This document shows, one piece after another, positions 6,093 through 59,430 of a DNA stretch of 64,000 nucleotides (positions within the stretch are counted from its first letter, which is position 1; each line of letters opens with the position of its first letter). Source of the stretch: Candidatus Saccharimonadota bacterium (GTDB lineage: Bacteria > Patescibacteriota > Saccharimonadia > Saccharimonadales > Saccharimonadaceae); NCBI GenBank assembly GCA_028286365.1, contig JAQBRR010000002.1, forward strand, positions 230,165 to 294,164, read 5' to 3'. Below the pieces are notes generated by a model. That model made no database searches. It was not told the DNA's origin and saw only the letters and a program-made list of their open reading frames with translations. The position numbers and the translations under genes were made by a program.

Positions 6093-6160
6093 AAAAATCC
6101 TTTCTTTGATTTAATGTTCATTCGACCTAGTTGTGAATGTTCCGACAAAGGCAGTTTAAG

Positions 6161-6201
6161 GAGAAAAGAAAAAGTCTTTGGACCTCGCACTGCCAAAGAC
6201 T
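6161..6201 (-). terminator. Attenuator hairpin in the rplJ leader
   Basis: On the minus strand, AGTCTTTGG (6201-6193) and CCAAAGACT (6181-6173) form a perfect 9-bp stem with an 11-nt loop, followed by TTTTCTTTTCTC. It lies between the rplJ promoter and rplJ. The upstream leader segment ACCAAAGACAGT can pair with the left arm, which gives an alternative, read-through structure. Confidence 0.75.
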
Positions 6202-6228
6202 AATATCGAAAAATGTATGTTTTACATG

Positions 6229-6287
6229 ATCCTCGGTAGCTGATTGAGTGTTTGACTAAGTCATTCACGGCTACTGTCTTTGGTAAT
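6229..6287 (-). promoter_or_regulatory. L10 (rplJ) leader, L10-binding mRNA structure
   Basis: The minus-strand leader reads ACCAAAGACAGTAGCC, a variable stem-loop, then AGCTACCGAGGATC. This matches the conserved L10 leader layout known from other bacteria (CAGTAGG ... CCTACCGAGGTC type), in which L10(L12)4 binds a kink-turn-like internal loop. Here it is coupled to the terminator at 6161-6201. Confidence 0.75.
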
Positions 6288-6297
6288 GTCTACTTGC

Positions 6298-6326
6298 AGT
6301 ATATCAACCGCGTTAAATGTTGTCAA
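6298..6326 (-). promoter_or_regulatory. Promoter of rplJ-rplL, TTGACA-N17-TATACT
   Basis: A consensus -35 TTGACA (6326-6321) and -10 TATACT (6303-6298) are separated by 17 nt on the minus strand. The predicted start site is near 6291, just before the L10 leader. Confidence 0.8.
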
Positions 6327-54533: not shown

Positions 54534-55364
54534 TCATACCACAAGCCGCGCTAAACAGAGGCGGATGTTGCCATTTGCTTGGATTTGTTGATAGGCATAC
54601 AGGAGGCTATCGATCTGTGCAATAAGTTCAGCTTGAGGCTTTTCACTAATACTACGTTTTAGGATGTTAGCGGCATTTGTCAGGAGTAGTAGTGCCGATT
54701 CCCTGTCGTCTTTGTATCTTGAGGCAACGACTAATTTCTTATACGTTGAAGCCTGTAATAGGTCACGTGCATCTCTTACAATCGTAGCCCTAGACTGAAA
54801 ATACGCGTCATCTGTTGTTAATCTATTAATTTCGGCTGGTAAGCCATCGGCCATAAAGAGTAATTGTGTGCGTTTTTTGTCATCTTTCACGCCTAGATCA
54901 TCAAGGAACGACTCTGTCTGCAGATGTGTAAGTGGCTGAAGGTCAAAAGCTCTCGTACGAGAGGCTACGGTCGGTAATAGCTTCGAAGGAGTATGAGTAG
55001 CCAATATGAAGTAAATGCCCTTCCCAGGCTCTTCTAGGAGCTTGAGGAAAGCATTTTGCGCAGGATGGCCCATTCGTTCGGCATAATCAATCACAATAAC
55101 GAGTTTGCCACTTTGAACAGAGCGAGTTTGATCATATAAACGGCGAATGCTATCAATACTAATAACACCTTTGTCGATATCTACTTTTTCGTCTTTCTCG
55201 GGTAGGACTGTCAGATGTACATCCCCCACTATGCTGGCAATATACTCAGCTGTCGTACTGAGACCAACACCTATCGGGCCAGTTAGTAAAATAGCCTGTG
55301 GCAAATCATTTATTAGTTGTGAGAGTGCCAAGTCGCTTGTTGGATGAAGAACAGGCTTATTCAT
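54534..55364 (-). CDS. holB: DNA polymerase III delta' subunit-like protein
   Basis: 276 residues. AAA+ fold close to clamp-loader delta': QAILLTGPIGVGLSTTAEYI (Walker-like loop with Leu instead of Lys, so no ATP hydrolysis expected), VIDYAERMGHPAQNAFLKLL, EEPGKGIYFILATHTPSKLL and ASRTRAFDL. Delta' subunits are usually inactive as ATPases, in agreement. It starts 1 nt downstream of rluA and works with DnaX (1948-3420). Confidence 0.85.
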   Translation of the reverse strand: MNKPVLHPTSDLALSQLINDLPQAILLTGPIGVGLSTTAEYIASIVGDVHLTVLPEKDEKVDIDKGVISIDSIRRLYDQTRSVQSGKLVIVIDYAERMGHPAQNAFLKLLEEPGKGIYFILATHTPSKLLPTVASRTRAFDLQPLTHLQTESFLDDLGVKDDKKRTQLLFMADGLPAEINRLTTDDAYFQSRATIVRDARDLLQASTYKKLVVASRYKDDRESALLLLTNAANILKRSISEKPQAELIAQIDSLLYAYQQIQANGNIRLCLARLVV

Positions 55365-55365
55365 G

Positions 55366-56529
55366 CTACAAAACTCCGGGGAACATGTCTGTGAATTCAG
55401 TAGGAATCGGTGCAGTGAACACTTGTCTGTTACTCGTCGGAATTGTAATTTCTAGGCTTGCTGCATGCAGATATAGCCTATCAGCGGGTTTACCATATAC
55501 TTTATCACCCATTATTGGTGTTGCGATATATTTCATATGGACGCGAAGTTGATGTGTTCGACCGGTGCGAGGTTCTAGTTTAACGAGGGCATGGCCGTCT
55601 TTTTCAGCCAAGACTTCGTACTTTGTCAGGGCCGCCTTACCCTTTACGTCAACTCGAAACGTACTCGGTGCTGATGGATTACGACCAATCGGCAGATCAA
55701 TTTGTGCTTTTGGTGACTTAGGAATGCCATCGACAACAGCAATGTACGTCTTCTTGGTCTTACGATCTGCGAATTGTTTTTGTAATAGCAGGGCCGTCTC
55801 GGTGTTACGAGCACCAATCATAACACCGCTAGTATCGCGATCAAGCCGATGAATGATGCCGGGTCGATTCGTATTCTCGTTATACGTGCTGTAGCGACCA
55901 AAGAAATCTGCAACAGTAAATTCATCATTTAATGCACCCTTGCTATGCGACAAAACGCCGACGGGTTTATTGATGACAATAACGTTATCATCGAGGTAGA
56001 TTATCGGTAGTTCACTTTCGCTAAAGTCAGTTGCATCAGGTACGGCAACGGCAATATTATCAGTCACAATAATTTCTTGCTTTGATGAAACAGCGGGCTC
56101 GCTGTTAACCGTAACATGACCGGCCTTGATATGCTTTTGCCATGTACTACGTGAGATGCCAGGGAAACGTTCGACTAGCTCTAGATCAAGACGAGTTTTT
56201 GGCGATTTAACCTCGAAGAGATAGATTTCCTTGCCATGGAATGGAATACCGTAGGTCGTCGTGTGATCTGTTGGGTTAACAACAACTTGCCCAATGATGT
56301 CCTGCTTATCTGTTCGTACTTGCTCGGTGATATATTCAACATCATCATCAGCCTCTTCGTCGAGAAGAATGTAATATTGTTGTTTAGCAAAACGGAAGCC
56401 AACAAGTGTATTCTTGGGGTTAGGATTACTGAATTTGACCATTGAGACATGTCGAGGGACGTTTTCATCACCAGCTAGCTCGAACTTGCGCAAGATTGCG
56501 ATAATATCACCGCTTGAAATCTTAACCAT
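55366..56529 (-). CDS. RluA-family pseudouridine synthase with extra N-terminal domain
   Basis: About 387 residues from ATG 56529, 1 nt after the trpS stop. Residues about 100-160 are an S4 domain (RLDLELVERFPGISRSTWQK, GHVTVNSE), and the catalytic domain follows with GIIHRLDRDTSGVMIGAR (catalytic Asp), and LEPRTGRTHQLRVHM. The first 100 residues (NPKNTLVGFRFAKQQYYILL, DDDVEYITEQVRTDKQD) are not part of the usual RluA protein and I do not recognise them. Modifies U in rRNA or tRNA; the exact site is unknown. Confidence 0.9.
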   Translation of the reverse strand: MVKISSGDIIAILRKFELAGDENVPRHVSMVKFSNPNPKNTLVGFRFAKQQYYILLDEEADDDVEYITEQVRTDKQDIIGQVVVNPTDHTTTYGIPFHGKEIYLFEVKSPKTRLDLELVERFPGISRSTWQKHIKAGHVTVNSEPAVSSKQEIIVTDNIAVAVPDATDFSESELPIIYLDDNVIVINKPVGVLSHSKGALNDEFTVADFFGRYSTYNENTNRPGIIHRLDRDTSGVMIGARNTETALLLQKQFADRKTKKTYIAVVDGIPKSPKAQIDLPIGRNPSAPSTFRVDVKGKAALTKYEVLAEKDGHALVKLEPRTGRTHQLRVHMKYIATPIMGDKVYGKPADRLYLHAASLEITIPTSNRQVFTAPIPTEFTDMFPGVL

Positions 56530-56530
56530 G

Positions 56531-57634
56531 TTAGACCTTCTGTCGCAGACCGACGGCTTGTTGCGCACGTAAGAGTGTTGCATTAGCGACTGGAATCAAA
56601 TCGTGTTCTGACTGTTCGAGTTTGGCAATTACTGCATTATCATCAACTGTTGAAAGTTTTTGCTGAAAGTCAGTTAAGAACTTCTCGACTTCAGCCGCAA
56701 CTACAGCCTTAAAGTCACCGTAGCTTGATTGACCTTCAAACTCTGCACTAACCTCTTCCAAGGTCCGTCCTTGCAGTAGTGAGAGGATTTGAAGTAAATT
56801 ACTAATGCCAGGTTGATTCTGTGGATCAAAATGAACACTGGCTAGATCATCTGTTGTGGCGCCTATGACTTTCTTGGCAGCAGCTGATGGTTGGTCGCCC
56901 AGGAAGATCACACCGCGACCAGAATCATCTGATTTGCTCATCTTCTTGGTTGGATCAATGAGGTCCTTAATACGAAGCCCTTGGTCTTTACCGAAGAACT
57001 TGTGTTGAACTGCGACAGACTCAGGAACATTGAAAGTATCGCCAAGTTTATTATTAAAACGCTCTGAAATATCACGAGCAAACTCGAGATGTTGAGTCTG
57101 ATCTTCGCCGACAGGAATGTATTGAGCTTCGTACAACAAAATATCTGCAGCCATGAGCACTGGATAGTTAAATAGACCCATACTTACAGTCTGGTTAACT
57201 TTTTTCTGCTTCACATCATTTACATCGTCTGGCAGCTCAAAATCTTGAGCGCCTAGTGAATCATACACATTTTGAGATTTATCTTTAAACTGTGTCATAC
57301 GACTCATTTCACCAAAACCTGTAAAACAATCCAGAATCCACGTCAGCTCACTATGCGCACTAATATAACTCTGGCGATACAGATAAATATCAGGATTATC
57401 GAGGGGCAGTCCCGCCGCTACAAATAGTCGTGCATTGTGCAGAATTTGGTCATACAGCAAGCTATGGTCAATTGGTGTCGTAAAGCTATGAAGATCAGGA
57501 ATGAACAGGTTCACTTGGTATTCATCAGAACGTGTCTTGGCCATGTCGATGATTGGCAAAATTGCACCAAAATAGTTACCAATCGTCAGATCATTATTGG
57601 CTCGAATGCCGGTTAAAATAACTGGTTTACTCAT
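56531..57634 (-). CDS. trpS: Tryptophanyl-tRNA synthetase
   Basis: Charges tRNA-Trp, 367 residues from ATG 57634 (MSKPVILTG); ATG 57643 is 3 codons earlier. HIGH-region DLTIGNYFGAILP (Thr in place of the first His, as in many bacterial TrpRS), YPVLMAADILLYEAQYIPVG and DQTQHLEFARDI, and KKMSKSDDSGRG (KMSKS). It is the third gene after the leader ORF at 59312-59392 and so may be controlled by Trp-tRNA supply. Confidence 0.96.
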   Translation of the reverse strand: MSKPVILTGIRANNDLTIGNYFGAILPIIDMAKTRSDEYQVNLFIPDLHSFTTPIDHSLLYDQILHNARLFVAAGLPLDNPDIYLYRQSYISAHSELTWILDCFTGFGEMSRMTQFKDKSQNVYDSLGAQDFELPDDVNDVKQKKVNQTVSMGLFNYPVLMAADILLYEAQYIPVGEDQTQHLEFARDISERFNNKLGDTFNVPESVAVQHKFFGKDQGLRIKDLIDPTKKMSKSDDSGRGVIFLGDQPSAAAKKVIGATTDDLASVHFDPQNQPGISNLLQILSLLQGRTLEEVSAEFEGQSSYGDFKAVVAAEVEKFLTDFQQKLSTVDDNAVIAKLEQSEHDLIPVANATLLRAQQAVGLRQKV

Positions 57635-57673
57635 TACGTTCATTATAGCCTAAATACACCGTAGAACATATTA

Positions 57674-58357
57674 TTAGTTTACCTCTGCCTGCCTTTTAAG
57701 CATCGCTTTTGACAAGCTAGATAACGAATCAATCGTCGGTAATTTGCTAATAATACCAACCAGTGGTAATTCTGTACAACCGAGTAGAATACAGTCGACG
57801 CCTTGAGACTCTAGTCGTTTCGCGATATCAGTCAGCCGCCTACGCATCGATAATGGTACATGGTTACTAATTACCCCATGAATTATGTTACTCAATGCAT
57901 CGATATCATGAGTATTTGGTTGTAAGACAGCTATACCCCGAGCCTTCAGTGCTTTGTGGTATAGTTCACTTTTTATGGTAAAAGGTGAAGCCAACAACCC
58001 GACTTTCTTGTGTCCAGCAGACTCAATATCATCAGCAACTGCGTCTATCATTGATACGAAGCTCTTTCTAGGTATATTCGTAAGGTCATCCAATAACAGA
58101 TGTGCAGTATTACAGGCTAAACCGATAACCGATGCTGTCTTCATTGGGAGATTACTTGTTACGTCCTGAATCATCTTTACGGCCCCTACTGCAGCCTCCG
58201 GCGTTGCAATGAAGTCCGGTGTCGGTATAGATGCATGAATGATCATCGGAAATTCGTCTGGTGCCTTACCTTTGCCGACGCCTACGACTATGAGTGAGTG
58301 CAAATGGGATGAGGCCTGCGGGCCCATCCCGCCAATTATTATCATATGATTTTTCAT
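57674..58357 (-). CDS. Aspartate/glutamate racemase family protein
   Basis: 227 residues. Two catalytic Cys are in place: VIGLACNTAHLLLDDL and CILLGCTELPLVG; the N-terminus has MIIIGGMGPQASSHLH. It makes D-Asp or D-Glu, or acts on a related substrate; D-Glu would serve peptidoglycan. It starts 10 bp after the 58368 gene and lies 39 bp before trpS, all in one direction. Shine-Dalgarno AAGGA is present. Confidence 0.9.
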   Translation of the reverse strand: MKNHMIIIGGMGPQASSHLHSLIVVGVGKGKAPDEFPMIIHASIPTPDFIATPEAAVGAVKMIQDVTSNLPMKTASVIGLACNTAHLLLDDLTNIPRKSFVSMIDAVADDIESAGHKKVGLLASPFTIKSELYHKALKARGIAVLQPNTHDIDALSNIIHGVISNHVPLSMRRRLTDIAKRLESQGVDCILLGCTELPLVGIISKLPTIDSLSSLSKAMLKRQAEVN

Positions 58358-58367
58358 TATTGTTTCC

Positions 58368-59234
58368 TTATCTTCCGAATGTGTATTCGGGGTTAACGGT
58401 TAAAAAGTGATCCATGTCACGTAATGCGGTCGGATTTGTTTCAATTGCCTCCCATCCCATAGTGAGATGAACTCTATCACCGTCGACTGCGAGGTAGTAA
58501 GGAGGCGTTACGTGCTTGGTAAATAGTTGAGCAGTTCGTACTTCTGGTGGCAGCAAAGCCTGCATCGCCATACGCGCACGATAAAATTGTCGTTCCTGTT
58601 GACAGCCAATACTAATAAGTGTGTCTGCCCTCACTTGATCTGGAGCCCCTGACTTCACTGCTGCAAGCTCTAGGCTATCCGTATCCTGAAATGCATAATG
58701 TGCTGCGACATAGCGGAATGTATCCCCACCGTGCTTACTGCCCTTAGCCTGCAATTTTGCGGCAAGTTCAGGATCAGTATCGAGTGCAGCAATAACTGTA
58801 TCGACATACTGATCGGTATCATGTGGTGTATCGACTGCATGGAGTACACGTCCTTCGAGTTCTGGAAACTTCCTTAAGTGTCTATCAATTTTATGGCCTA
58901 AGTTATACGCTTCTCTGCCGCTTTCTGCCAGATTTACCCCATTTACCTTATTACCTAAATGATTAGCGTGAACGATTTGTATTTGCGCGGTAGGGATATG
59001 TCTTGCGACACGAAACACACTATCAGCATAGGACAGGCCTCTCTCTGGGATATGTGTACTCGCCCCTAAAATTAATCTAAGTACAGCAGCTCCTATTTCT
59101 GGATGATCGACTACATCAACTAAGTTGTGAGCATCTAGCTGACCGACAGACTCAATATATGCATCTGGATCACGTATTAATTGTTTTTTTATTTGATTCA
59201 ACCTGGTATTGCGTTCTTGTTCTATAGGATGCAT
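58368..59234 (-). CDS. Uncharacterised protein behind the leader-peptide attenuator
   Basis: 288 residues, soluble. Helical N-terminus (RNTRLNQIKKQLIRDPDAYI), then FRVARHIPTAQIQIVHANHL, DTDQYVDTVIAALDTDPELA, KGSKHGGDTFRYVAAHYAFQ and QQERQFYRARMAMQALLPPE. I do not recognise the family. Several conserved-looking His and Tyr suggest an enzyme. It is the first structural gene after the terminator at 59261, with AAGGAG before the ATG, followed by the racemase and trpS; a role linked to amino acids is possible but unproven. Confidence 0.65.
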   Translation of the reverse strand: MHPIEQERNTRLNQIKKQLIRDPDAYIESVGQLDAHNLVDVVDHPEIGAAVLRLILGASTHIPERGLSYADSVFRVARHIPTAQIQIVHANHLGNKVNGVNLAESGREAYNLGHKIDRHLRKFPELEGRVLHAVDTPHDTDQYVDTVIAALDTDPELAAKLQAKGSKHGGDTFRYVAAHYAFQDTDSLELAAVKSGAPDQVRADTLISIGCQQERQFYRARMAMQALLPPEVRTAQLFTKHVTPPYYLAVDGDRVHLTMGWEAIETNPTALRDMDHFLTVNPEYTFGR

Positions 59235-59260: not shown

Positions 59261-59283
59261 AAAAAACCGTCTGGTGACGGTTT
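59261..59283 (-). terminator. Attenuator terminator before the 58368-trpS operon
   Basis: On the minus strand AAACCGTC-ACCA-GACGGTTT-TTT: 8-bp stem and T-run, 27 nt before ATG 59234. The left arm AAACCGTCAC (59283-59274) is also perfectly complementary over 10 bp to GTGACGGTTT (59340-59331) inside the leader ORF. The two helices exclude each other. Confidence 0.8.
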
Positions 59284-59311
59284 AGTCGATATTCTTAAAT
59301 TCTAGGATGTG

Positions 59312-59392
59312 TTACTTCAAAACACGGAACAAACCGTCACGCTGGGTGTCGGTAAACCAATAGCTACTTACTGATATGGTTCGTTTGTTCAT
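59312..59392 (-). CDS. Leader peptide ORF, 26 codons, one Trp
   Basis: ATG 59392, TAA 59314-59312. It starts MNKRTISVSSYW and ends LFRVLK. The single TGG is codon 12 (59359-59357). The antiterminator strand GTGACGGTTT (59340-59331) covers codons 18-21, so a ribosome waiting at codon 12 would leave it free to pair and block the terminator at 59261, whereas normal reading would disturb it. GTTTGTTC (59334-59327) can also pair with GAACAAAC (59390-59383) at the start. The promoter places the mRNA start almost at this ATG. trpS is in the operon. This assignment is inference from sequence logic. Confidence 0.6.
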   Translation of the reverse strand: MNKRTISVSSYWFTDTQRDGLFRVLK

Positions 59393-59401
59393 TACAACTT
59401 G

Positions 59402-59430
59402 ACTATAACCTATTATGTTTTGTTTGTGAA
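59402..59430 (-). promoter_or_regulatory. Promoter of the attenuated operon, TTCACA-N17-TATAGT
   Basis: Minus strand TTCACA (59430-59425) and TATAGT (59407-59402) with 17-nt spacing; the -10 ends 9 nt before the leader ATG at 59392. Confidence 0.65.

Follow-up and report, generated by a model that had tools for sequence, protein, structure and literature searches.

Organization of the leader and the trpS operon

On the minus strand of the window (the whole 64,000-nucleotide stretch of Saccharibacteria DNA that was analysed), a leader with its own promoter, a short open reading frame (ORF) and an intrinsic terminator lies between a GNAT acetyltransferase gene and the first gene of an operon that includes trpS (Table 1). 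A sequence-only reading of this DNA had described the promoter, a 26-codon ORF with one Trp codon and the terminator, and all three were found at the positions it gave. The gene calls upheld the downstream order that it had listed, from a Pfam-less protein through a racemase, trpS and an RluA-type enzyme to a delta'-like gene, and no strong promoter was present just before trpS, where only a 9/12 match about 110 nt upstream was seen.

Table 1 Features of the leader and of the neighbouring genes in the window
Feature	Position	Strand	Remarks
Promoter	59402..59430	-	-35 TTCACA 59430-59425, 17-nt spacer, -10 TATAGT 59407-59402; 10/12 vs consensus
Leader ORF, 26 codons	59392-59312	-	peptide MNKRTISVSSYWFTDTQRDGLFRVLK, then stop; single TGG
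Control codon Trp UGG (codon 12)	59359-59357	-	only Trp codon of the leader ORF
Leader stop codon	59314-59312	-	
Region 1, outer arm (protector) GAACAAAC	59390-59383	-	pairs with GTTTGTTC 59334-59327; in window MFE fold
Region 1, inner arm (protector) ACCGACAC	59353-59346	-	local hairpin with GTGACGGT 59340-59333
Region 2, antiterminator 5' arm	59340-59319	-	inside the ORF, codons 18-25
Region 3, antiterminator 3' arm	59295-59274	-	final part also serves as terminator left arm
Intrinsic terminator (regions 3:4)	59283-59264	-	AAACCGTC-ACCA-GACGGTTT and T run to 59261
First structural gene, 288 aa, Pfam-less	58368..59234	-	GGAG precedes its ATG
Asp/Glu racemase family protein	57674..58357	-	PF01177, TIGR00035
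trpS, tryptophanyl-tRNA synthetase, presumed main target	56531..57643	-	TIGR00233 above cut-off
RluA-type pseudouridine synthase, operon member	55366..56583	-	PF00849
DNA polymerase III delta'-like (holB), operon member	54534..55364	-	PF13177
GNAT acetyltransferase gene, upstream of leader	59892-59434	-	perfect TTGACA-17-TATAAT promoter 59930-59902

The perfect 10-bp antiterminator of the earlier reading does pair without mismatch (59340-59331 with 59283-59274), but the true helix is longer, covering 22 positions, and is mostly paired in the window copy. Antiterminator and terminator share the left arm of the latter and are mutually exclusive. As in attenuators of the trp type, an intrinsic terminator stands before the first structural gene and a protector (1:2) pairing is present; the minimum free energy (MFE) fold of the window copy combines protector and terminator (-29.7 kcal/mol, vs -20.2 for the antiterminator fold).

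Between the GNAT gene, whose promoter is perfect, and position 59283 no separate terminator was found, so that a second, longer transcript started at the GNAT promoter may enter the leader. The attenuator terminator may also end the GNAT transcript.

The 288-aa protein had no Pfam, NCBIfam or PDB match, and its AlphaFold single-sequence model reached a pLDDT of 46, too low to be informative. Two other leader operons (L139 and L178) were the only places where relatives of it turned up (about 45% identity), each time beside a racemase gene, and the racemase gene itself recurs behind Trp leaders. A scan of the window's own genome with the RNA model returned, at E<=2, nothing beyond the leader and its antisense. 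Elsewhere in the window (6159-6301, minus strand), an L10 leader (RF00557) scored above the Rfam gathering score.

Conservation across the order

A DNA search within the genus returned three related leaders, with a match that spanned the ORF itself, and a 20-base pattern taken from the end of the ORF had copies in 21 of 295 family genomes; when read, all but one chance match showed the same layout (-10, ORF, terminator and usually trpS). A covariance model (R1) made from 19 aligned leaders found the leader in 40 of the 295 family genomes and in 96 of 295 sampled genomes of the order (about one third), in 72 of its 143 sampled genera. Since homologues are spread over 25 genera of the family and over those 72 genera of the order, with strong covariation, the leader is, on comparative sequence grounds, more than chance. 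A total of 104 copies were read. On the same strand and within 2.7 kb downstream, trpS was present in 90 of the 99 copies with enough sequence, and the genes between leader and trpS varied (GNAT, AstE/aspartoacylase-like, M20 peptidase and racemase genes).

Within the genus, only 4 of 28 members carry the leader and nothing resembling it was seen upstream of trpS in the genus-mates checked, so that the leader is dispensable there. That genus-mates manage without it, and that the GNAT gene combines a perfect promoter with the lack of a terminator of its own before 59283, would suit a locus with no switch at all, in which the hairpin merely serves as terminator for the upstream GNAT gene and the promoter for trpS lies elsewhere. 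However, the upstream gene varies among relatives while promoter, ORF, antiterminator and trpS stay, and a plain terminator would not need an alternative helix of 22 pairs; we find the absence of a switch hardly credible.

Records with the strict form of the motif were mostly Saccharibacteria metagenome-assembled genomes (MAGs), with one complete genome (CP025011.1). A contig titled Chloroflexi bacterium (SEAL01000010.1, L285) has the Saccharibacteria leader and is probably a mislabelled MAG. A leader lying inside trpS (G004; L072, contig C20) was discarded as a scaffolding artefact with N runs. Tandem attenuators, two in series and either directly adjoining or with a gene between, were seen at L147, L174, L177, L190, L160, L203, L214, L215, L216, L328, L342 and L343.

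Covariation of the alternative helices

In an alignment of 100 sequences, 84.5% of the antiterminator cells were paired and 19 of the 22 pairs had two-sided changes, the cells with such changes numbering 138 vs 50 in shuffled alignments (0/500 shuffles as high). Sliding the helix by 1-3 columns, a control that like the swapped one below leaves some relatedness among the sequences, lowered pairing to 31-57%. Because this alignment had been fitted to the structure, a fairer test is given by the first alignment, made before any such fitting; there, the antiterminator was 88% paired, with two-sided changes at 6 pairs (0/500 shuffles). The terminator had two-sided changes at 6 of its 11 pairs (19 sequences), and the inner protector, a local hairpin (ACCGACAC/GTGACGGT) that the sequence-only reading had missed, was paired in 76% of cells, its last pair switching between G-C and C-G. 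When the duplex energy of each leader's own arms was compared with that of swapped arms, within the same residual relatedness, the antiterminator (z -11.2), the outer protector (z -5.8) and the inner protector (z -5.1) all favoured their own partners, vs z +0.7 for an unrelated pair of segments; the third helix proposed earlier, GAACAAAC/GTTTGTTC, which is the outer protector, is thus supported. No relevant Rfam match, T-box and Trp_leader (RF00513) included, was obtained at the gathering score or at E<5.

Reading frame, Trp codon and spacing of the leader ORF

Of the 104 leaders, 100 had an in-frame Trp codon, compared with 32% of ORFs after shuffling, and in 83 the codon was single, fewer than most trp leaders have. 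The number of nucleotides from the ATG to this codon was divisible by three in 97 of 99 copies, though the Trp mostly shifts between codons 9 and 14, whereas the distance from Trp to region 2 was spread over the three phases (33/4/30 copies); frame therefore matters up to the Trp codon and not after it. Between the end of the Trp codon and region 2 lay 15-16 nt in 83 of 95 copies, and the stop codon lay mostly 24-30 nt past the start of region 2, whichever the frame. The leader ORF and its Trp codon are kept across the order and the helices covary, and this order-wide conservation and covariation support the original proposal that a Trp leader peptide with mutually exclusive antiterminator and terminator would control the trpS operon.

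As R1 had seen the Trp region, a second model (R3) was built without it, from region 2 to the terminator only, and matched in 109 of 285 genomes. When 21 places found by R3 only were read, 13 stood before trpS and one before a racemase and a gene resembling that of a Pfam-less 350-aa protein (c26); all 14 new attenuators had an in-frame Trp codon, in surroundings otherwise diverged. The other seven of the 21 places were ordinary terminators, with neither leader ORF nor trpS, and were discarded.

The four Trp-less leaders were one in G006 and three matches in G033, two of which may be one leader split between contigs. The G006 leader (L069 7976-8102) has Ser (TCG) where the Trp codon is expected. 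The G033 copies (L109 at 10 and 1223, L121 at 1916) are IVVII-rich and FYIFM-containing, with Ile/Val or Phe/Tyr/Ile codons, and precede c26 and an M20 peptidase.

The -10 ended most often 6-9 nt 5' of the leader ATG (99 relatives), and Shine-Dalgarno-like 4-mers occurred in only 6 of 99 stretches upstream of it; because of this spacing and this scarcity, the leader ORF is probably leaderless, starting at or within a few nucleotides of the 5' end of the mRNA, a point absent from the sequence-only reading.

TnaC is the leader peptide of tryptophanase, in which a Trp near codon 12 is followed by Phe, and the W-F of the window copy resembles it. Together with a (D/G)GLFRV(L/F) ending kept within family f1, with some synonymous changes, this resemblance could suggest an arrest peptide of the TnaC/SecM type, in which the nascent chain and free tryptophan would stall the ribosome near the C-terminus, with ...GGLFRVLK as the arrest sequence. 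Across the order, however, the ORFs use three frames of the same RNA (GGLFRVF, AVCSVRS or WRFVLC), so that the peptide end is not conserved, and a ribosome stalled at the C-terminus would cover region 2 and favour termination. The arrest peptide was rejected because other families read the RNA as AVCSVRS or WRFVLC, and we regard it as extremely improbable. The likeness to TnaC, which the earlier reading had suspected of being fortuitous, is indeed chance, the Trp codon standing at 9-14 in most relatives with three frames after it; the Saccharibacteria leader further differs from TnaC in its intrinsic terminator and in its opposite logic.

The residues around the Trp codon bear on how specific the response would be. 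Of 92 copies, 70 have Tyr or Phe just before it and 71 have Phe just after it, FFYFWFT cores occur in some families, and the G006 operon adds, by sequence reading, prephenate dehydrogenase- and dehydratase-like genes between leader and trpS, all of which could be expected if the Y/F-W-F core also answered shortage of Tyr or Phe, or any slowing of translation, besides shortage of Trp. Yet Trp is the sole residue kept in nearly all copies, diverged ones included (RFMRW, CRWYN, RHWHNN), the near-uniform TAT and TTT codons suggest a constraint on the RNA, and trpS is nearly always the target; a sensor of aromatic or general starvation is accordingly, in our judgement, rather unlikely, and sensing of Trp is the preferred reading.

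Leaders with other control codons

Some copies have changed both control codon and target, a reuse of the same chassis for other amino acids that the sequence-only reading had not foreseen. These retargeted leaders were retrieved by RNA similarity and not by codon content. They lie outside the trpS-linked group and carry runs of their control codons ahead of cognate genes. A Leu-codon leader precedes leuS, a Phe-codon leader precedes prephenate dehydratase (twice), a Tyr-codon leader precedes prephenate dehydrogenase, an HH leader precedes hisS (as the second gene) and a WW leader precedes trpB and trpS. Among the Trp leaders themselves, two with two Trp codons precede TrpB-like enzymes, and one precedes an operon with DAHP synthase, prephenate dehydrogenase, chorismate mutase/prephenate dehydratase, a Trp-repressor family protein and IGP synthase. 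Outside the order, 20 places were read, with about four strict matches between codon and gene, three places with recurrent cargo (racemase, AstE-like) and unknown or unrelated genes downstream of the rest; with about four strict matches in 20, the case for the whole phylum is weaker than that for the order.

Other leader-like places were noted. Before a HAD-like gene in G404 (L293 1501-1641) stands a possible Tyr leader (NTYYAT...YRRYSY), which has a terminator and a consensus-like promoter and matches the model weakly (E 0.18). In other Patescibacteria groups (L242, L245, L232, L234 and L243), leaders rich in Ile or Leu and equipped with matching terminators precede unknown genes.

The strongly conserved RNA and its switch between alternative structures could also belong to a structured riboswitch, a T-box or a protein-binding RNA working independently of translation, with an incidental ORF. 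Such an element would hardly keep the frame from start to Trp while the frame after Trp drifts, nor a stop position that tracks region 2 in every frame, nor control codons that agree with the downstream gene in the retargeted copies; with no Rfam match either, T-box included, even at E<5, we consider a translation-independent element very improbable.

A predicted attenuator responding to charged tRNA-Trp

The in-frame Trp codon, the geometry, the covariation and the cognate targets of the retargeted copies argue for classical ribosome-mediated attenuation in a probably leaderless form, and the leader very probably attenuates transcription of the trpS operon in response to charged tRNA-Trp. From the promoter spacing, we infer a transcription start at the leader ATG or directly beside it, and ribosome loading on a nearly leaderless mRNA. 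With ample Trp-tRNA, the ribosome would reach the stop codon and cover region 2, leaving region 3 free, so that the terminator would form and transcription would end near 59261. With scarce Trp-tRNA, it would stall on the lone Trp codon, breaking the 1:2 protector pairing and exposing region 2, which begins 15-16 nt downstream and would then pair with region 3 and block the terminator; RNA polymerase would read into the 288-aa gene, the racemase gene, trpS, rluA and holB. The sequence comparisons establish the anatomy, the covarying helices, the constraint on frame as far as the Trp codon, the geometry, the link with trpS and the agreement of codon and target in retargeted copies; translation of the leader ORF, for which the frame conservation speaks, ribosome stalling and a read-through that varies with tRNA-Trp charging are predicted.

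Folding of 81 leaders with a ribosome footprint gave 15.5 expected antiterminator pairs with the ribosome at Trp vs 4.2 with the ribosome at the stop codon, and in this model stalling on Trp would mean read-through and completion would mean termination. If the leader is not translated, the protector would be expected to tip the balance towards the terminator; this basal state is tentative because the equilibrium model without a ribosome often still forms the antiterminator (12.3 expected pairs in the 81 leaders).

Relation to known attenuators

The leader shares with E. coli trpL a Trp-codon leader ORF, the 1:2, 2:3 and 3:4 helices, an intrinsic terminator and a similar spacing, the last Trp codon of trpL lying 14 nt from the antiterminator vs 15-16 nt here. 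In contrast with trpL, it has one Trp codon instead of two, no Shine-Dalgarno sequence and probably hardly any 5' UTR, a longer antiterminator that reaches into the ORF, trpS instead of trpEDCBA as its target, and no Rfam sequence match. Leaderless poly-Cys short ORFs of mycobacteria were reportedly described by Canestrari in 2020, as leaderless leader ORFs that sense an amino acid, which the present leader, with its probably leaderless ORF, would resemble. PMC13236596 describes those ORFs as acting by translation attenuation, whereas the Saccharibacteria leader has a conserved intrinsic terminator and antiterminator. A classical attenuator has been predicted ahead of trpS2 in Streptomyces avermitilis (PMC1262725), likewise a ribosome-mediated attenuator preceding a trpS gene. 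The trp-operon leaders of Actinobacteria in the same study differ in their double or triple UGG codons, in their GC-rich terminators and in belonging to another phylum, with no shared sequence shown. A 2010 survey, which added Firmicutes, stated that leader-peptide systems had been known only from Proteobacteria and Actinobacteria (PMC2965389). Consistently with the earlier reading, which knew of no such system in Saccharibacteria, our searches of the open-licence literature for attenuation or leader peptides in Saccharibacteria, Patescibacteria or CPR returned nothing relevant. Ribosome-mediated attenuation is a known kind of regulation; its leaderless, modular and lineage-wide form appears to be new.

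Significance for Saccharibacteria and other Patescibacteria

With their reduced genomes, Saccharibacteria and other Patescibacteria rely on hosts for amino acids, and little is known of how they sense the supply of these. The leader offers a concrete predicted sensor of charged tRNA, old and widespread, in a lineage for which we found none described. Because the control codon names the amino acid, such leaders may be used to place unknown genes in amino-acid regulons, and one chassis with different codons would be a natural record of attenuators evolving new specificity. We consider the chances even that the leaders form a Patescibacteria-wide family of leaderless, modular attenuators, retargeted by swaps of the control codon (Trp, Leu, Phe, Tyr, His and perhaps Ile/Val) and running genes for aminoacyl-tRNA synthetases, aromatic pathways and amino-acid salvage. 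If so, this family would be a main system by which these reduced episymbionts sense individual amino acids, and the 288-aa protein, c26, the AstE-like protein, the racemase and the M20 peptidase would be marked as products of tryptophan-supply genes.
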